From Halisarca cf. caerulea (taxonomy: Eukaryota > Porifera > Demospongiae > Chondrillida > Halisarcidae), in contig CAUJGJ010000003.1 of assembly GCA_963170055.1 (NCBI GenBank), positions 1,525,069 to 1,589,068 of the forward strand: DNA of 64,000 nucleotides, written 5' to 3'. The notes beneath the pieces were generated by a model. The model saw only the letters and a list, made by a program, of their open reading frames with translations, made no database searches and was not told the origin of the DNA. Positions 46,789 to 63,114 of the stretch are shown piece after piece. The position numbers and the translations under genes were made by a program. The first letter of the stretch is position 1. Each line of letters starts with the position of its first letter.

Positions 46789-46951
46789 TTTGCCGGACAA
46801 TGCTAAGAAGAACCGCTACCGAAATGCCCTTCCTGTGGACAACAGTAGAGTATGCCTGCATGATGTGGATATCACCAAGCCTGGGGCTGACTACATCAAT
46901 GCCAACTACATCGATGGTGTAGACGGACCACGAGGCTACATTGCTGCACAG
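46789..46951 (+). CDS. Receptor-type PTP exon, copy 1 (type A)
   Basis: 163-nt exon between ctcttccag and gtgagtgg. It encodes the N-terminal part of a tyrosine phosphatase catalytic domain: KKNRYRNALPVDNSRV and PGADYINANYIDG, then GYIAAQ, the classical KNRY and DYINA motifs that build the substrate pocket wall. The exon enters with one base of a split codon and leaves at a codon boundary. Type A has VDNSR and NANYIDG. The catalytic HCSAGxGR loop and the rest of the gene are outside the window. A palindrome (46480-46515) lies 270 bases upstream. The frame is intact. Confidence 0.85.
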
Positions 46952-48027
46952 GTGAGTGGATAGAATGATAGTGTGTGTGTGTGTGTGTGTGTGTGTGTGA
47001 CACCAGGAGTGTGTACTAACCAGTAGTGTGTACTAACCAGGAGAGTGTACTAACACTCCTGGTTAGTACACACTCCTCATTAGTACAAACTCCTGGTTAG
47101 TACACTCTCCTGGTTAGTACACACTCCTGGTTAGTATACACTCCTGGTTAGTGCACACTCCTGGTTACTACACACTCCTGGTTAGCACACACTCCTGGTT
47201 TTACACACACTCCTGGTTAGTACACTCTCCTGGTTACTACACACTCCTGGTTACTACACACTCCTGGTTAGCACACACTCCTGGTTAGTACACTCTCCTG
47301 GTTAGTACACTCTCCTGGTTACTACACACTCCTGGTTACTACACACTCCTGGTTACTACACACTCCTGATTAGCACACACTCTTGGTTAGTACACTCTCC
47401 TGGTTAGTACACACTCCTGGTTAGCACACACTCCTGGTTAGCACACTCTCCTGGTTGGTTCACTCTCCTGGTTACTACACACTCCTGGTTAGCACACACT
47501 CCTGGTTACTACACACTCCTGGTTACTACACACTCCTGGTTAGTACGCTCTCCTGGCTAATACACTCTCCTGGTTACTACACACTCCTGGTTAGTACACA
47601 CTCCTGGTTACTACACACTCCTGGTTACTACACACTCCTGGTTAGTGCAAATTCCTGGTTACTACACACTCCTGGTCATGTGTGCGTGTGTGTGTGTTCG
47701 TGTTGTGTAAAGTATGTACGTACATAGATGACATATATGTGCATATATGTCATCTATGTACATATGTTTCATATGTGTACGTATGTGTCATGTATGGACA
47801 TATGTGTCATGTCTGTACATATGTGTAATGTATGTACGTATGTGTCATGTCTGTACATATGTTTCATGTGTGTACGTATGTGTCATGTATGTGTGTGTGT
47901 GTGTTTGTGTTTGTGTTTGTGTTTGTGTTTGTGCATGTGGGTGTGTACATGTATGTGTACATGACATCATGTATATAAATTTCCAGTACCGGCCCTGTAC
48001 TTGCTTATATTTTTTGATCTCTTCCAG

Positions 48028-48190
48028 TTTGCCGGACAATGCTAAGAAGAACCGTTACCGAAATGCCCTTCCTGTGGCCAACAGTAGAGTATGCCTGCAT
48101 GACGTGGATATCACCAAGCCTGGGGCTGACTACATCAATGCCAACTTCATCGATGGTGTAGACGGACCACGAGGCTACATTGCTGCACAG
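48028..48190 (+). CDS. Receptor-type PTP exon, copy 2 (type B)
   Basis: Same 163-nt exon with identical splice sites. Type B has VANSR in place of VDNSR and NANFIDG in place of NANYIDG. Followed by a long TG tract (48210-48370). In the PTP family the aromatic residue of the N-x-NY/F-I-D-G motif is commonly Y or F, so both forms could fold. Its upstream palindrome is 47723-47758 with one central mismatch. Confidence 0.85.
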
Positions 48191-48209
48191 GTGAGTGGAT
48201 AGAATGATA

Positions 48210-48370
48210 GTGTGTGTGTGTGTGTGTGTGTGTGTGTGTGTGTGTGTGTGCATGCGCGTGTGTGTGTATGTGTGTGTGTGTGTGTGTGTGTGTGTGTGTG
48301 TGTGTGTGTGTGTGTGTGTGTGTGTGTGTGTGTGTGTGTGTGTGTGTGTGTGTGTGTGTGTGTGTGTGTG
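48210..48370 (+). repeat. (TG)n tract downstream of PTP exon copy 2
   Basis: About 160 bases of TG with one catgcgcg and one gtatg interruption. Equivalent long tracts follow copies 4 (51615-51785) and 6 (54820-54976). Copies 1, 3 and 5 have short ones (about 30 bases). Copy 7 has about 75 bases. Confidence 0.95.
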
Positions 48371-59144: not shown

Positions 59145-59320
59145 TTTTTTTTTTTAGTAGTAGTAGTACGTATTACTCATTAACAGTGTTCTTACGAGCA
59201 TATAATAGATAAAGCACATGGGAAATAGTAGGAATTAAAATGTATGCTGTTAACTGCTTTATTAAGTACACTAAATCAAAATGTGAGCTACTGAGTCAAA
59301 CAATACGTTCATTCAGATTA
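59145..59320. repeat. 175-bp insert in minisatellite, copy 4
   Basis: The only copy not following an exon cassette closely. It has one base change (ttacgagc for ttacaagc). It suggests that a cassette was lost from, or never present in, this array segment. Confidence 0.8.
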
Positions 59321-62300
59321 CCTGGTTACTACACACTCCTGGTTAGCACACACTCCTGGTTACTACACACTCCTGGTTACTACACACTCCTGGTTAGCAC
59401 ACACTCCTTTTTTACACACACTCCCGGTTACTACACACTCCTCGTTACTACACACTCCTGGTTACTACACACTCCTGATTACTACACACTCCTGGTTAGC
59501 ACACACTCTTGGTTAGTGCACTCTCCTGGTTAGTGCACACTCCTGGTTAGCACACACTCCTGGTTACCACACACTCCTGGTTAGTACACACTCCTGGTTA
59601 CTACACACTCCTGGTTACTACACACTCCTGGTTAGCACACACTCCTGGTTGCTACACACTCCTGGTTAGTACACACTCCTAGTTACTACACACTCCTGGT
59701 TAGCACACACTCCTGGTTTTACACACACTCCTGGTTACTACACACTCCTGGTTACTACACACTCCTGGTTACTACACACTCCTGGTTACTACACACTCCT
59801 GGTTAGCAAACACTCTTGGTTAGTACACTCTCCTGGTTAGTGCACACTCCTGGTTAGCACACACTCCTGGTTAGCACACTCTCCTGGTTAGTACACTCTC
59901 CTGGTTACGACACACTCCTGGTTAGCACACACTCTTGGTTAGTACACTCTCCTGGTTAGTGCACACTCCTGGTTAGCTCACACTCCTGGTTAGCACACTC
60001 TCCTGGTTAGTACACTCTCCTGGTTACGACACACTCCTGGTTAGCACACACTCCTGGTTAGCACACACTCCTGGTTTTACACACACTCCTGGTTACTACA
60101 CACTCCTGGTTACTACACACTCCTGGTTAGTACGCTCTCCTGGCTAATACACTCTCCTGGTTACTACACACTCCTGGTTAGTACACACTCCTGGTTACTA
60201 CACACTCCTGGTTACTACACACTCCTGGTTAGCACACACTCCTGGTTGCTACACACTCCTGGTTAGTACACACTCCTAGTTACTACACACTCCTGGTTAG
60301 CACACACTCCTGGTTTTACACACACTCCTGGTTACTACACACTCCTGGTTACTACACACTCCTGGTTACTACACACTCCTGGTTACTACACACTCCTGGT
60401 TAGCACACACTCTTGGTTAGTACACTCTCCTGGTTAGTGCACACTCCTGGTTAGCACACACTCCTGGTTACTACACACTCCTGGTTACTACACACTCCTG
60501 ATTACTACACACTCCTGGTTAGCACACACTCTTGGTTAGTGCACTCTCCTGGTTAGTGCACACTCCTGGTTAGCACACACTCCTGGTTACCACACACTCC
60601 TGGTTAGTACACACTCCTGGTTACTACACACTCCTGGTTACTACACACTCCTGGTTAGCACACACTCCTGGTTGCTACACACTCCTGGTTAGTACACACT
60701 CCTAGTTACTACACACTCCTGGTTAGCACACACTCCTGGTTTTACACACACTCCTGGTTACTACACACTCCTGGTTACTACACACTCCTGGTTACTACAC
60801 ACTCCTGGTTACTACACACTCCTGGTTAGCACACACTCTTGGTTAGTACACTCTCCTGGTTAGTGCACACTCCTGGTTAGCACACACTCCTGGTTAGCAC
60901 ACTCTCCTGGTTAGTACACTCTCCTGGTTACGACACACTCCTGGTTAGCACACACTCTAGGTTAGTACACTCTCCTGGTTAGTGCACACTCCTGGTTAGC
61001 ACACACTCCTGGTTAGCACACTCTCCTGGTTAGTACACTCTCCTGGTTACGACACACTCCTGGTTAGCACACACTCCTGGTTAGCACACACTCCTGGTTT
61101 TACACACACTCCTGGTTACTACACACTCCTGGTTACTACACACTCCTGGTTAGTACGCTCTCCTGGCTAATACACTCTCCTGGTTACTACACACTCCTGG
61201 TTAGTACACACTCCTGGTTACTACACACTCCTGGTTACTACACACTCCTGGTTAGCACACACTCCTGGTTGCTACACACTCCTGGTTAGTACACACTCCT
61301 AGTTACTACACACTCCTGGTTAGCACACACTCCTGGTTTTACACACACTCCTGGTTACTACACACTCCTGGTTACTACACACTCCTGGTTACTACACACT
61401 CCTGGTTACTACACACTCCTGGTTAGCACACACTCTTGGTTAGTACACTCTCCTGGTTAGTGCACACTCCTGGTTAGCACACACTCCTGGTTAGCACACT
61501 CTCCTGGTTAGTACACTCTCCTGGTTACTACACACTCCTGGTTAGCACACACTCCTGGTTAGCACACACTCCTGGTTTTACACACACTCCTGGTTACTAC
61601 ACACTCCTGGTTACTACACACTCCTGGTTACTACACACTCCTGGTTACTACACACTCCTGGTTAGCACACACTCTTGGTTAGTACACTCTCCTGGTTAGT
61701 GCACACTCCTGGTTAGCACACACTCCTGGTTAGCACACTCTCCTGGTTAGTACACTCTCCTGGTTACTACACACTCCTGGTTAGCACACACTCCTGGTTA
61801 GCACACACTCCTGGTTTTACACACACTCCTGGTTAGTACACACTCCTGGTTACTACACACTCCTGGTTACTACACACTCCTGGTTAGCACACACTCCTGG
61901 TTGCTACACACTCCTGGTTAGTACACACTCCTAGTTACTACACACTCCTGGTTAGCACAAACTCCTGGTTTTACACACACTCCTGGTTACTACACACTCC
62001 TGGTTACTACACACTCCTGGTTACTACACACTCCTGGTTACTACACACTCCTGGTTAGCACACACTCTTGGTTAGTACACTTTCCTGGTTAGTGCACACT
62101 CCTGGTTAGCACACACTCCTGGTTAGCACACTCTCCTGGTTAGTACACTCTCCTGGTTACTACACACTCCTGGTTAGCACACACTCCAGGTTAGCACACA
62201 CTCCTGGTTTTACACACACTCCTGGTTACTACACACTCCTGGTTACTACACACTCCTGGTTACTACACACTCCTGGTTACTACACACTCCTGGTTAGCAC

Positions 62301-62951
62301 ACACTCTTGGTTAGTACACTCTCCTGGTTAGTGCACACTCCTGGTTAGCACACACTCCTGGTTAGCACACTCTCCTGGTTAGTACACTCTCCTGGTTACT
62401 ACACACTCCTGGTTAGCACACACTCCTGGTTACTACACACTCCTGGTTACTACACACTCCTGGTTAGTACGCTCTCCTGGCTAATACACTCTCCTGGTTA
62501 CTACACACTCCTGGTTAGTACACACTCCTGGTTACTACACACTCCTGGTTACTACACACTCCTGGTTAGTGCAAATTCCTGGTTACTACACACTCCTGGT
62601 CATGTGTGCGTGTGTGTGTGTTTATGTTGTGTAAAGTATGTACGTACATTGATGACATATATGTACATATATGTCATCTATGTACATATGTTTCATATGT
62701 GTACGTATGTGTCATGTATGGACGTATGTGTCTTGTCTGTACATATGTGTAATGTATGTACGTATGTGTCATGTCTGTACATATGTTTCATGTGTGTACG
62801 TATGTGTCATGTATGTGTGTGTGTGTGTTTGTGTTTGTGTTTGTGTTTGTGTTTGTGCATGTGGGTGTGTACATGTATGTGTACATGACATCATGTATAT
62901 AAATTTCCAGTACCGGCCCTGTACTTGCTAATATTTTTTGATCTCTTCCAG

Positions 62952-63114
62952 TTTGCCGGACAATGCTAAGAAGAACCGCTACCGAAATGCCCTTCCTGTG
63001 GCCAACAGTAGAGTATGCCTGCATGACGTGGATATCACCAAGCCTGGGGCTGACTACATCAATGCCAACTTCATCGATGGTGTAGACGGACCACGAGGCT
63101 ACATTGCTGCACAG
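62952..63114 (+). CDS. Receptor-type PTP exon, copy 7 (type B exon, A-like leader)
   Basis: Type B protein sequence (VANSR, NANFIDG), but gctaatatt precedes the acceptor as in type A cassettes. Its palindrome (62647-62682) has one arm change, with ttgatgac in place of tagatgac. It is the last copy before the array reverses. Whatever exon follows must lie beyond 64000, and it must begin at a codon boundary to be in frame. Confidence 0.83.

Follow-up and report, generated by a model that had tools for sequence, protein, structure and literature searches.

The window analyzed here, a stretch of 64,000 nucleotides of Halisarca cf. caerulea contig CAUJGJ010000003.1 (hereafter C3), contains seven copies of one exon of a tyrosine phosphatase (PTP) domain, and we consider it very probable that they derive from a piece of a receptor gene that lies at an ectopic site and was recently amplified there together with its minisatellite. 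A preliminary description of this DNA had put forward a Dscam-like cluster of mutually exclusive exons and, as its alternative, a recent non-functional amplification with the minisatellite; the evidence favors the latter reading.

Seven copies of one exon in two classes

The motif TTCCAG-N163-GTGAGT was sought on both strands, and candidates were kept if they had fewer than 60 mismatches to copy 1; this yielded seven 163-nt exons, all on the plus strand (coordinates are window positions unless prefixed by C3). Copies 1 (46789..46951), 3 (50026..50188) and 5 (53399..53561) are identical and form class A, with Asp17 and Tyr40. Copies 2 (48028..48190), 4 (51433..51595) and 6 (54636..54798) are also identical to one another and form class B, with Ala17 and Phe40. 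The two classes differ at 4/163 positions, two synonymous and two replacing, which are too few for a selection test. Copy 7 (62952..63114) is 1 nt from class B and 3 nt from class A, and the seven copies together encode only two protein variants. Both variants matched PF00102 at positions 1-48 (E values of 1.3e-12 and 1.1e-10), corresponding to just the first ~50 residues of the PTP domain. The scan and the profile match thus bear out the claim that the same PTP piece is encoded seven times, by exons of 163 nt whose splice sites are intact.

Each copy consists of 1 nt plus 54 codons without a stop, and 7/7 copies also agree throughout the first 22 nt of the intron that follows. It had been claimed that joining two copies would bring in a TAA about six codons into the second; in 21/21 ordered pairs the first stop was the same, a TAA as codon 6 of the second copy, and the phase arithmetic by which an mRNA can hold at most one working copy is sound. 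The reading frames and splice sites are intact in all seven copies, an observation that tilts against a non-functional array.

The home gene of the exon

The same exon is present once, at residues 1840-1893 with 52/54 identity, in P0121, a 2,684-aa JGI environmental record that is one representative of 8 sequences. In P0121 it is preceded by Leu and followed by Ser. The preliminary description expected neighboring exons to carry in two bases and to resume at a codon boundary, and the flanks of the single P0121 copy would fit both phases. The P0121 exon carries Thr5, Asp17 and Phe40 and matches neither variant in the window; Ala5 is common to all seven copies and to a truncated remnant on contig C412.

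Residues 1-1444 of P0121 map to contig C342 at 98 to 99% identity (18 of 435 candidates scored), and P0121 possibly comes from another individual or a sister species. Since the two C342 pieces are separated by a 289-nt stretch missing from P0121, P0121 reads as a spliced sequence. At least 29 cadherin repeat matches (PF00028) were found on C342 in the same frame as P0121 residues 1-986 (150 of 449 candidates scored; 150 matches). The profile matches of P0121, namely, PF16070 (26.7 bits, just below the cut-off of 27; E value of 5.6e-6), PF00963 (24.3 bits; cut-off, 24.1) and PF00102 (231.8 bits), indicate TMEM132-type/cohesin domains followed by the PTP domain.

Lefftyrins have a PTP tail and an N-terminal LEF cassette. 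The home gene resembles these cadherins in its cadherin repeats, TMEM132-like domains, cohesin and PTP domain, and as judged from its sequence it is a predicted giant lefftyrin-like cadherin/TMEM132-like receptor located on C342; in contrast, the window holds one exon and not a whole gene. The TMEM132 domain order is common to lefftyrins, coherins and hedglings (PMC6030884).

The PTP signature of P0121 is HCANGLGKTG, compared with HCSAGVGRTG in RPTP-sigma, placing K at the R of HCX5R, and its WPD motif reads WED. The signature arginine therefore appears to have been lost from the home receptor. The assignment of the exon to a catalytic PTP domain stands as to PTP identity, but "catalytic" is doubtful because in the home-gene protein the signature R is replaced by K.

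The preliminary description had named a PTP gene elsewhere, supplying this exon, as an argument against a functional cluster, and such a gene is present as far as C342 was compared, that is, up to P0121 residue 1444. The home exon would then be located in C342 beyond this part. That the comparison ends short of the exon tilts against the assignment.

Search for other gene parts around the array

When all 2,684 P0121 residues were compared by tblastn with the 154 kb surrounding the array, the seven exons were the only matches with E values up to 1e-3. The search covered 76.8 kb upstream, where no P0121 part that could serve as a constitutive upstream exon was found at this threshold, and 55 kb downstream, which likewise yielded no such part; the 5 kb directly past the window (C3:1589069-1594068) were outside it. 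The neighboring PTP exons anticipated at the array were therefore not seen in these stretches. Two HMMs, one for the PTP part preceding the exon ("before") and one for the part following it ("after"), found nothing else near the array (best other i-E values of 0.64 and 3.5, respectively); in control loci of the same genome both found PTP exons, the "after" model strongly and the "before" model with values below 1e-5 in only 2/9 loci. Searching with 26 of 120 PTPs by tblastn gave, beyond the seven exons, one weak match near the array (21980-22141; E value of 0.078), which is located inside a reverse-transcriptase frame and was taken as chance. The pattern HCSAGxGR occurs at 7 sites genome-wide, none of them on C3, but this was not used as proof because many PF00102 matches start inside or just past the motif and because P0121 itself lacks it.

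Upstream of position 47,000 there were 93 forward-strand frames of at least 60 aa after low-complexity filtering, and 61 + 5 of these (plus one sub-stretch) were scanned against profiles. Besides the exon itself, no receptor domain was found in the scanned frames; they carry transposase, reverse-transcriptase, RNase H and integrase domains, along with sub-threshold matches to Roc, Dam and PCIF1_WW.

These searches bear on the proposal that the array belongs to a partial gene duplicate, in which a second, truncated copy of the receptor gene would continue with its following PTP exons in the 5 kb past the window. Further exons just downstream are possible within C3:1589069-1594068, which tilts against an isolated fragment, and sequence free of 17-bp and TG repeats resumes near the end of the window. 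Nevertheless, P0121 residues 1-1839 are missing from the 76.8 kb upstream, and the DNA just past the 5 kb resembles, by reading, a reverse-transcriptase frame. We regard such a duplicate as unlikely; it would be a variant of the ectopic fragment, compatible with it, and may be transcribed as a pseudogene.

Architecture and divergence of the array

Each exon is preceded by an intron block, such as that before exon 5 (53041..53398, plus strand), in which a 19-bp TGTACGTATG-type repeat is followed by the acceptor region. The block is 96 to 100% identical in 7/7 units and 93% identical on C412, where it and the opening 39 nt of the exon are fused to 17-bp units. An eighth unit (45743..46431, plus strand) has no exon; it runs from a partial block (block positions 104-290 at C3:1570811-1570997) into the 17-bp minisatellite (45980-46431). 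Adjoining the 5' edge of the array is an inverted-repeat, MITE-like element (45010..45742, unstranded) in which CGCATGTGGGACATGTCC and its reverse complement were read directly. Unit spacing is mostly 1.2 to 2.0 kb, with 8.3 kb before exon 7, and the A+B double unit measures 3.2 to 3.4 kb. The largest 17-bp array, of ~442 units according to TRF and with two TE insertions inside, is located between exons 6 and 7 (55026..62600, plus strand). In the intron after exon 7, where the array is mostly in reverse orientation (63211..63835, minus strand), 34 units are reverse and 3 are forward, with 31/34 reverse units starting at or beyond 63311. The 17-bp unit is dispersed, with 376 exact two-unit matches compared with 0 for a reversed control. 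A young dispersed insertion within the minisatellite (48735..48890, plus strand) is one of four copies that are 99 to 100% identical; introns 2 and 4 hold a single copy apiece and intron 6 holds two. The insertions in the three introns have the same flanks; this young TE insertion predates the amplification.

The near-identity of the units extends beyond the exon through flanking intron and repeats: identity reaches 99.6% between inter-exon segments 1 and 5 (1,076 nt) and 96.8% between segments 2 and 4 (1,845 nt). Exchange between units is also visible. Copy 5 is a recombinant, its class A exon being joined to a class-B-like upstream intron between -22 and +28, and the intron upstream of copy 7 is mosaic, A-like at some positions and B-like at others. 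Between classes A and B the exon differs at 4/163 positions and the upstream intron at 7/362, with no excess conservation of the exon seen in this comparison. Copies 2 and 7 tilt the opposite way, at 1/163 in the exon versus 7/370 in the upstream intron, and this lower exon divergence stands against the preferred reading.

As the array was judged from the assembly alone and includes long identical segments and simple repeats, reads of one exon with minisatellite-rich introns might have been mis-joined on C3. However, the array is structured in ways that mis-joining would not easily produce: the exons fall into two classes, each with introns of its own type, one copy is recombinant, one unit has no exon, the insertions in three introns share their flanks, and a truncated copy exists independently on C412. 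An assembly artefact is accordingly quite improbable, even if the copy number in the assembly may be off.

Frame logic, hairpins and exon choice

It is very improbable that the array serves the PTP domain as a store of spare exons, whether cis-spliced into a gene with its other exons in unread DNA or acting as gene-conversion donors that alter home residues 17 and 40. In the form of a functional mutually exclusive cluster, one of the seven copies would be spliced into the receptor mRNA, with frame and NMD removing doubles and the choice perhaps guided by pairing of forward and reverse 17-bp units. The frame logic and intact splice sites agree with this proposal, as do the single copy in P0121, the 34 reverse units that follow exon 7 and the strong hairpins past each donor. 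Fifty nucleotides past the exon 1 donor, three reverse-complement 17-bp units face forward units (47002..47131, plus strand), and equivalent hairpins follow each of the remaining six exons, at 48373, 50237, 51788, 53610, 54979 and 63213 (z of -5.7; 0/200 shuffles). RNA pairing as a splicing device was considered, but the hairpins were not counted as evidence for regulation because they are expected from inverted minisatellites alone.

Dscam exon 6 choice relies on a docking site and selector sequences in one gene with many distinct variants (PMC11802352), although such docking/selector pairing is not universal among mutually exclusive clusters. Like Dscam, the array consists of one exon repeated in tandem, and in Dscam each mRNA uses a single copy; frame incompatibility alone is not how Dscam works, and the array offers just two variants, nearly identical, with no constitutive exon seen in the searched DNA nearby. 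Against a Dscam-like cluster stand the readable gene part on C342, the lack of any other P0121 part in the DNA searched on either side, a repertoire of two proteins of which neither is that of P0121, and an exon that between the classes is no more conserved than the intron; we find this proposal extremely doubtful. A literature search found no mutually exclusive cluster of PTP-domain exons.

That the array consists of silent donor cassettes for gene conversion of the home exon is barely credible, for although units visibly exchange sequence and P0121 joins the Asp17 of class A with the Phe40 of class B, its Thr5 occurs in 0/7 copies, Asp17 and Phe40 may as easily be ancestral with one replacing change per class, and a single expressed sequence was seen.

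Origin and significance

For the ectopic fragment, we infer which way it was transferred, how it was amplified and that it has no function. One internal exon of the giant lefftyrin-like receptor gene on C342 would have been the source, and the piece that moved would have comprised this exon together with the tail of an intron, including its tandem repeats, and the start of the next intron. This piece would have reached a TE-rich site on C3, and another, truncated piece C412. On C3 it may have multiplied with the 17-bp minisatellite by unequal exchange and by copying between inverted repeats, while the units also exchanged sequence with one another.

Higher-order repeats and composite satellites can capture gene fragments and consist of recent tandem multi-kb units, homogenized by class and with mobile elements inside. 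The array resembles them in all of these respects; it differs in that the captured piece retains an intact exon and both splice sites. For exon duplication tied to a minisatellite, the literature search returned the earthworm metallothionein case only. There, clone Lr6F14 has a duplicated fourth exon in a gene family with a repetitive intron of the minisatellite class (PMC12783039). The likeness is one exon duplicated alongside such an intron; the Lr6F14 copies are within their own gene, whereas the copies in the window are arranged as a higher-order array and the readable remainder of their gene belongs to a different contig.

These data indicate that an exon-phase argument alone can mislead, as the cluster looks like a Dscam switch yet is apparently cut off from its gene. 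The array is a natural snapshot of an exon that moved with both splice sites and multiplied along with a dispersed minisatellite, and such moved exons are the raw material needed for exon shuffling and tandem exon duplication. It also draws attention to a putative giant lefftyrin-like receptor of this sponge whose PTP domain apparently lacks the signature arginine.

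The seven exons and their reading frame

A sequence scan of the window found seven plus-strand exons of 163 nt each (46789 to 63114), all with TTCCAG directly on the 5' side and GTGAGT on the 3' side. Copies 1, 3 and 5 (class A) are identical, as are copies 2, 4 and 6 (class B), and copy 7 is one base apart from class B. The four positions that distinguish the classes comprise two silent and two replacing changes (Asp17/Ala and Tyr40/Phe). In every copy the frame consists of one base plus 54 codons, and the encoded peptide aligns to positions 1-48 of the Pfam PTP domain. In all 21 ordered pairs of copies, joining put a stop into the frame of the second copy at its sixth codon. 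The preliminary description of seven exons encoding the same PTP piece, with splice sites and with joint splicing out of frame, was thus borne out, far beyond chance. The PTP family of this genome is large, with at least 158 PF00102 matches (150 of 265 candidates scored; contigs C226, C270, C79 and C89); among the matches listed, those to the seven window exons are the only ones that begin with the first profile position.

The home gene of the exon

A protein search with the exon peptide among medium-length candidates gave a sea-urchin receptor PTP (52% identity) and no other match. When longer proteins were admitted, one protein among five candidates was returned, P0121, a JGI environmental record of 2684 aa (contig of up to 9988 nt) that stands for 8 sequences. 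The exon occurs in it once, at residues 1840-1893, with 52/54 identical. Pfam matches to P0121 were strong for PTP, slightly above the cut-off for cohesin and slightly below it for the fourth TMEM132 domain. The TMEM132 domain order is present in lefftyrins, coherins and hedglings, according to Sanchez-Pulido and Ponting (PMC6030884).

In a genome search with 18 of 435 candidates scored, residues 1-986 and 981-1444 of P0121 were placed on the minus strand of contig C342 at 99% and 98%, respectively, and residues 1378-1442 were 100% identical to a directly read C342 stretch. P0121 looks like a spliced sequence, since it is without the 289 nt that separate its two pieces on C342. The frame containing residues 1-986 belongs to a giant, lefftyrin-like receptor (C342:339177-364709, minus strand) with TMEM132-like parts and 29 of the at least 150 cadherin matches of the genome; its length is given as 10,379 codons, possibly inflated by N, and the matches bracket approximately 8,500 codons. 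With a PTP tail on a TMEM132-type receptor, the home gene is presumably of the lefftyrin kind. Open frames of approximately 4,600 to 9,500 codons with cadherin matches, their lengths possibly inflated by N, were also seen on contigs C1, C114, C350 and C172.

C342 was covered above 337,500, and the home gene extends below this point, its PTP part probably lying outside the coverage. Residues 1894-2158 gave 62 matches in the readable sequence of the genome, all 26-50% identical (85/85 candidates scored), which fits a position of the true home PTP exons in the C342 DNA below 337,500. The PTP signature of P0121 is HCANGLGKTG, with Lys at the RPTP-sigma Arg position, and WED is found in place of WPD. 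By established PTP chemistry, such signature changes are expected to weaken or abolish activity, and the home PTP domain probably has little or no phosphatase activity.

The surroundings of the array

With the whole of P0121 as a tblastn query (E up to 1e-3), the seven exons were the sole matches in the window, the 76.8 kb that precede exon 1 and 55 kb of downstream sequence starting 5 kb past the window's end; these flanks contain no N. Two HMMs, built for the PTP portions that precede ("before") and follow ("after") the exon, found nothing further in the DNA around the array. At nine control loci in this genome, the "after" HMM scored down to 8e-68; the "before" HMM is the weaker test, because its best control score was 1.9e-6 and only two loci fell below 1e-5. 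The upstream open frames that were scanned carried retroelement domains, transposase domains and, in one case, a Roc-like match. From these tblastn and HMM blanks, together with the retroelement and transposase frames, the exon appears to be present on this contig (C3) without its gene, with a reservation for the 5 kb directly past the window.

An 844-aa open frame at 30836-33367 resembles Roc GTPase at a score below the threshold (E 1.4e-4) and is perhaps a ROCO-type gene. An LTR retrotransposon-like element with a reverse transcriptase occupies 36897-43180, with similar stretches at approximately 36,900-37,170 and 42,950-43,180. An inverted-repeat element with CGCATGTGGGACATGTCC ends (45010-45742) directly abuts the array on its 5' side, and a second copy of this element is inside the LTR-like region (approximately 37,213-37,953).

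Structure of the array and related copies

In each unit, an upstream block of approximately 360 nt, made up of 19-bp repeats and the acceptor region, leads into the exon; behind the exon come 22 invariant nt, a run of TG and three 17-bp units in reverse orientation. In introns 1 to 6 these are followed by 37 to 424 forward units; after exon 7 the 17-bp units are mainly reverse. The array's 5' edge carries an eighth unit, in which block and minisatellite are present and the exon is missing. By the copy coordinates, the A+B pair has a period of 3.2-3.4 kb, and the first and fifth inter-exon segments share 99.6% identity across 1076 nt. In copy 5, a class A exon stands behind a class-B-like intron, the switch lying between -22 and +28; copy 7 shows a mosaic pattern. 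Both indicate that units have exchanged sequence. A very young dispersed element of approximately 145 nt lies inside the minisatellite of introns 2, 4 and 6 (48735-48890 and three further copies, 99-100% alike), and near-complete copies with 98-100% identity occur on seven further contigs; the multiplication therefore postdates a recent insertion. Palindromic minisatellite junctions follow every exon, with folding energies of -69 to -85 kcal/mol and a folding z of -5.7 for the first.

An exon search of the genome's readable sequence (8/8 candidates scored) returned the seven window copies and a fragment at C412:6855318-6855703, in which the upstream block (93%) is followed by the initial 39 nt of exon sequence, which then breaks off into 17-bp units. 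A DUF6589-like coding piece lies downstream of the fragment (24.4 bits, below the cut-off of 27). Residue 5 is Ala in every window copy and in the C412 fragment and Thr in P0121, and therefore the orphans share a state that, judging from P0121, is absent from the expressed exon. The 17-bp minisatellite is dispersed in the genome, where exact matches to two consecutive units numbered 376, with none for the reversed control.

Classes A and B differ at 4/163 exon positions (2.45%) versus 7/362 in the upstream intron (1.93%), and copies 2 and 7 at 1/163 versus 7/370. These comparisons, with changes too few for a formal test, gave no consistent sign of selection restraining the exon.

Origin of the array

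The exon phases had initially been read as a Dscam-like mutually exclusive cluster, a comparison that does not hold, in the DNA covered, for flanking exons, variant diversity or conservation. In Dscam itself, exon 6 choice depends on docking and selector pairing (PMC11802352). The alternative that had been offered, a recent amplification with the minisatellite, is favored, and the copies would presumably lack function. A near precedent is an earthworm metallothionein clone, for which PMC12783039 describes fourth-exon duplications with minisatellite-class intron repeats, the duplications being absent from the transcript.

On the simplest account of the sequence, the array derives from a fragment of a receptor gene that came to lie at an ectopic site and multiplied there. 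The piece would have been carried to C3 together with its intronic minisatellite and multiplied there via unequal exchange or template switching at the repeats, which the palindromic junctions after each exon would promote.
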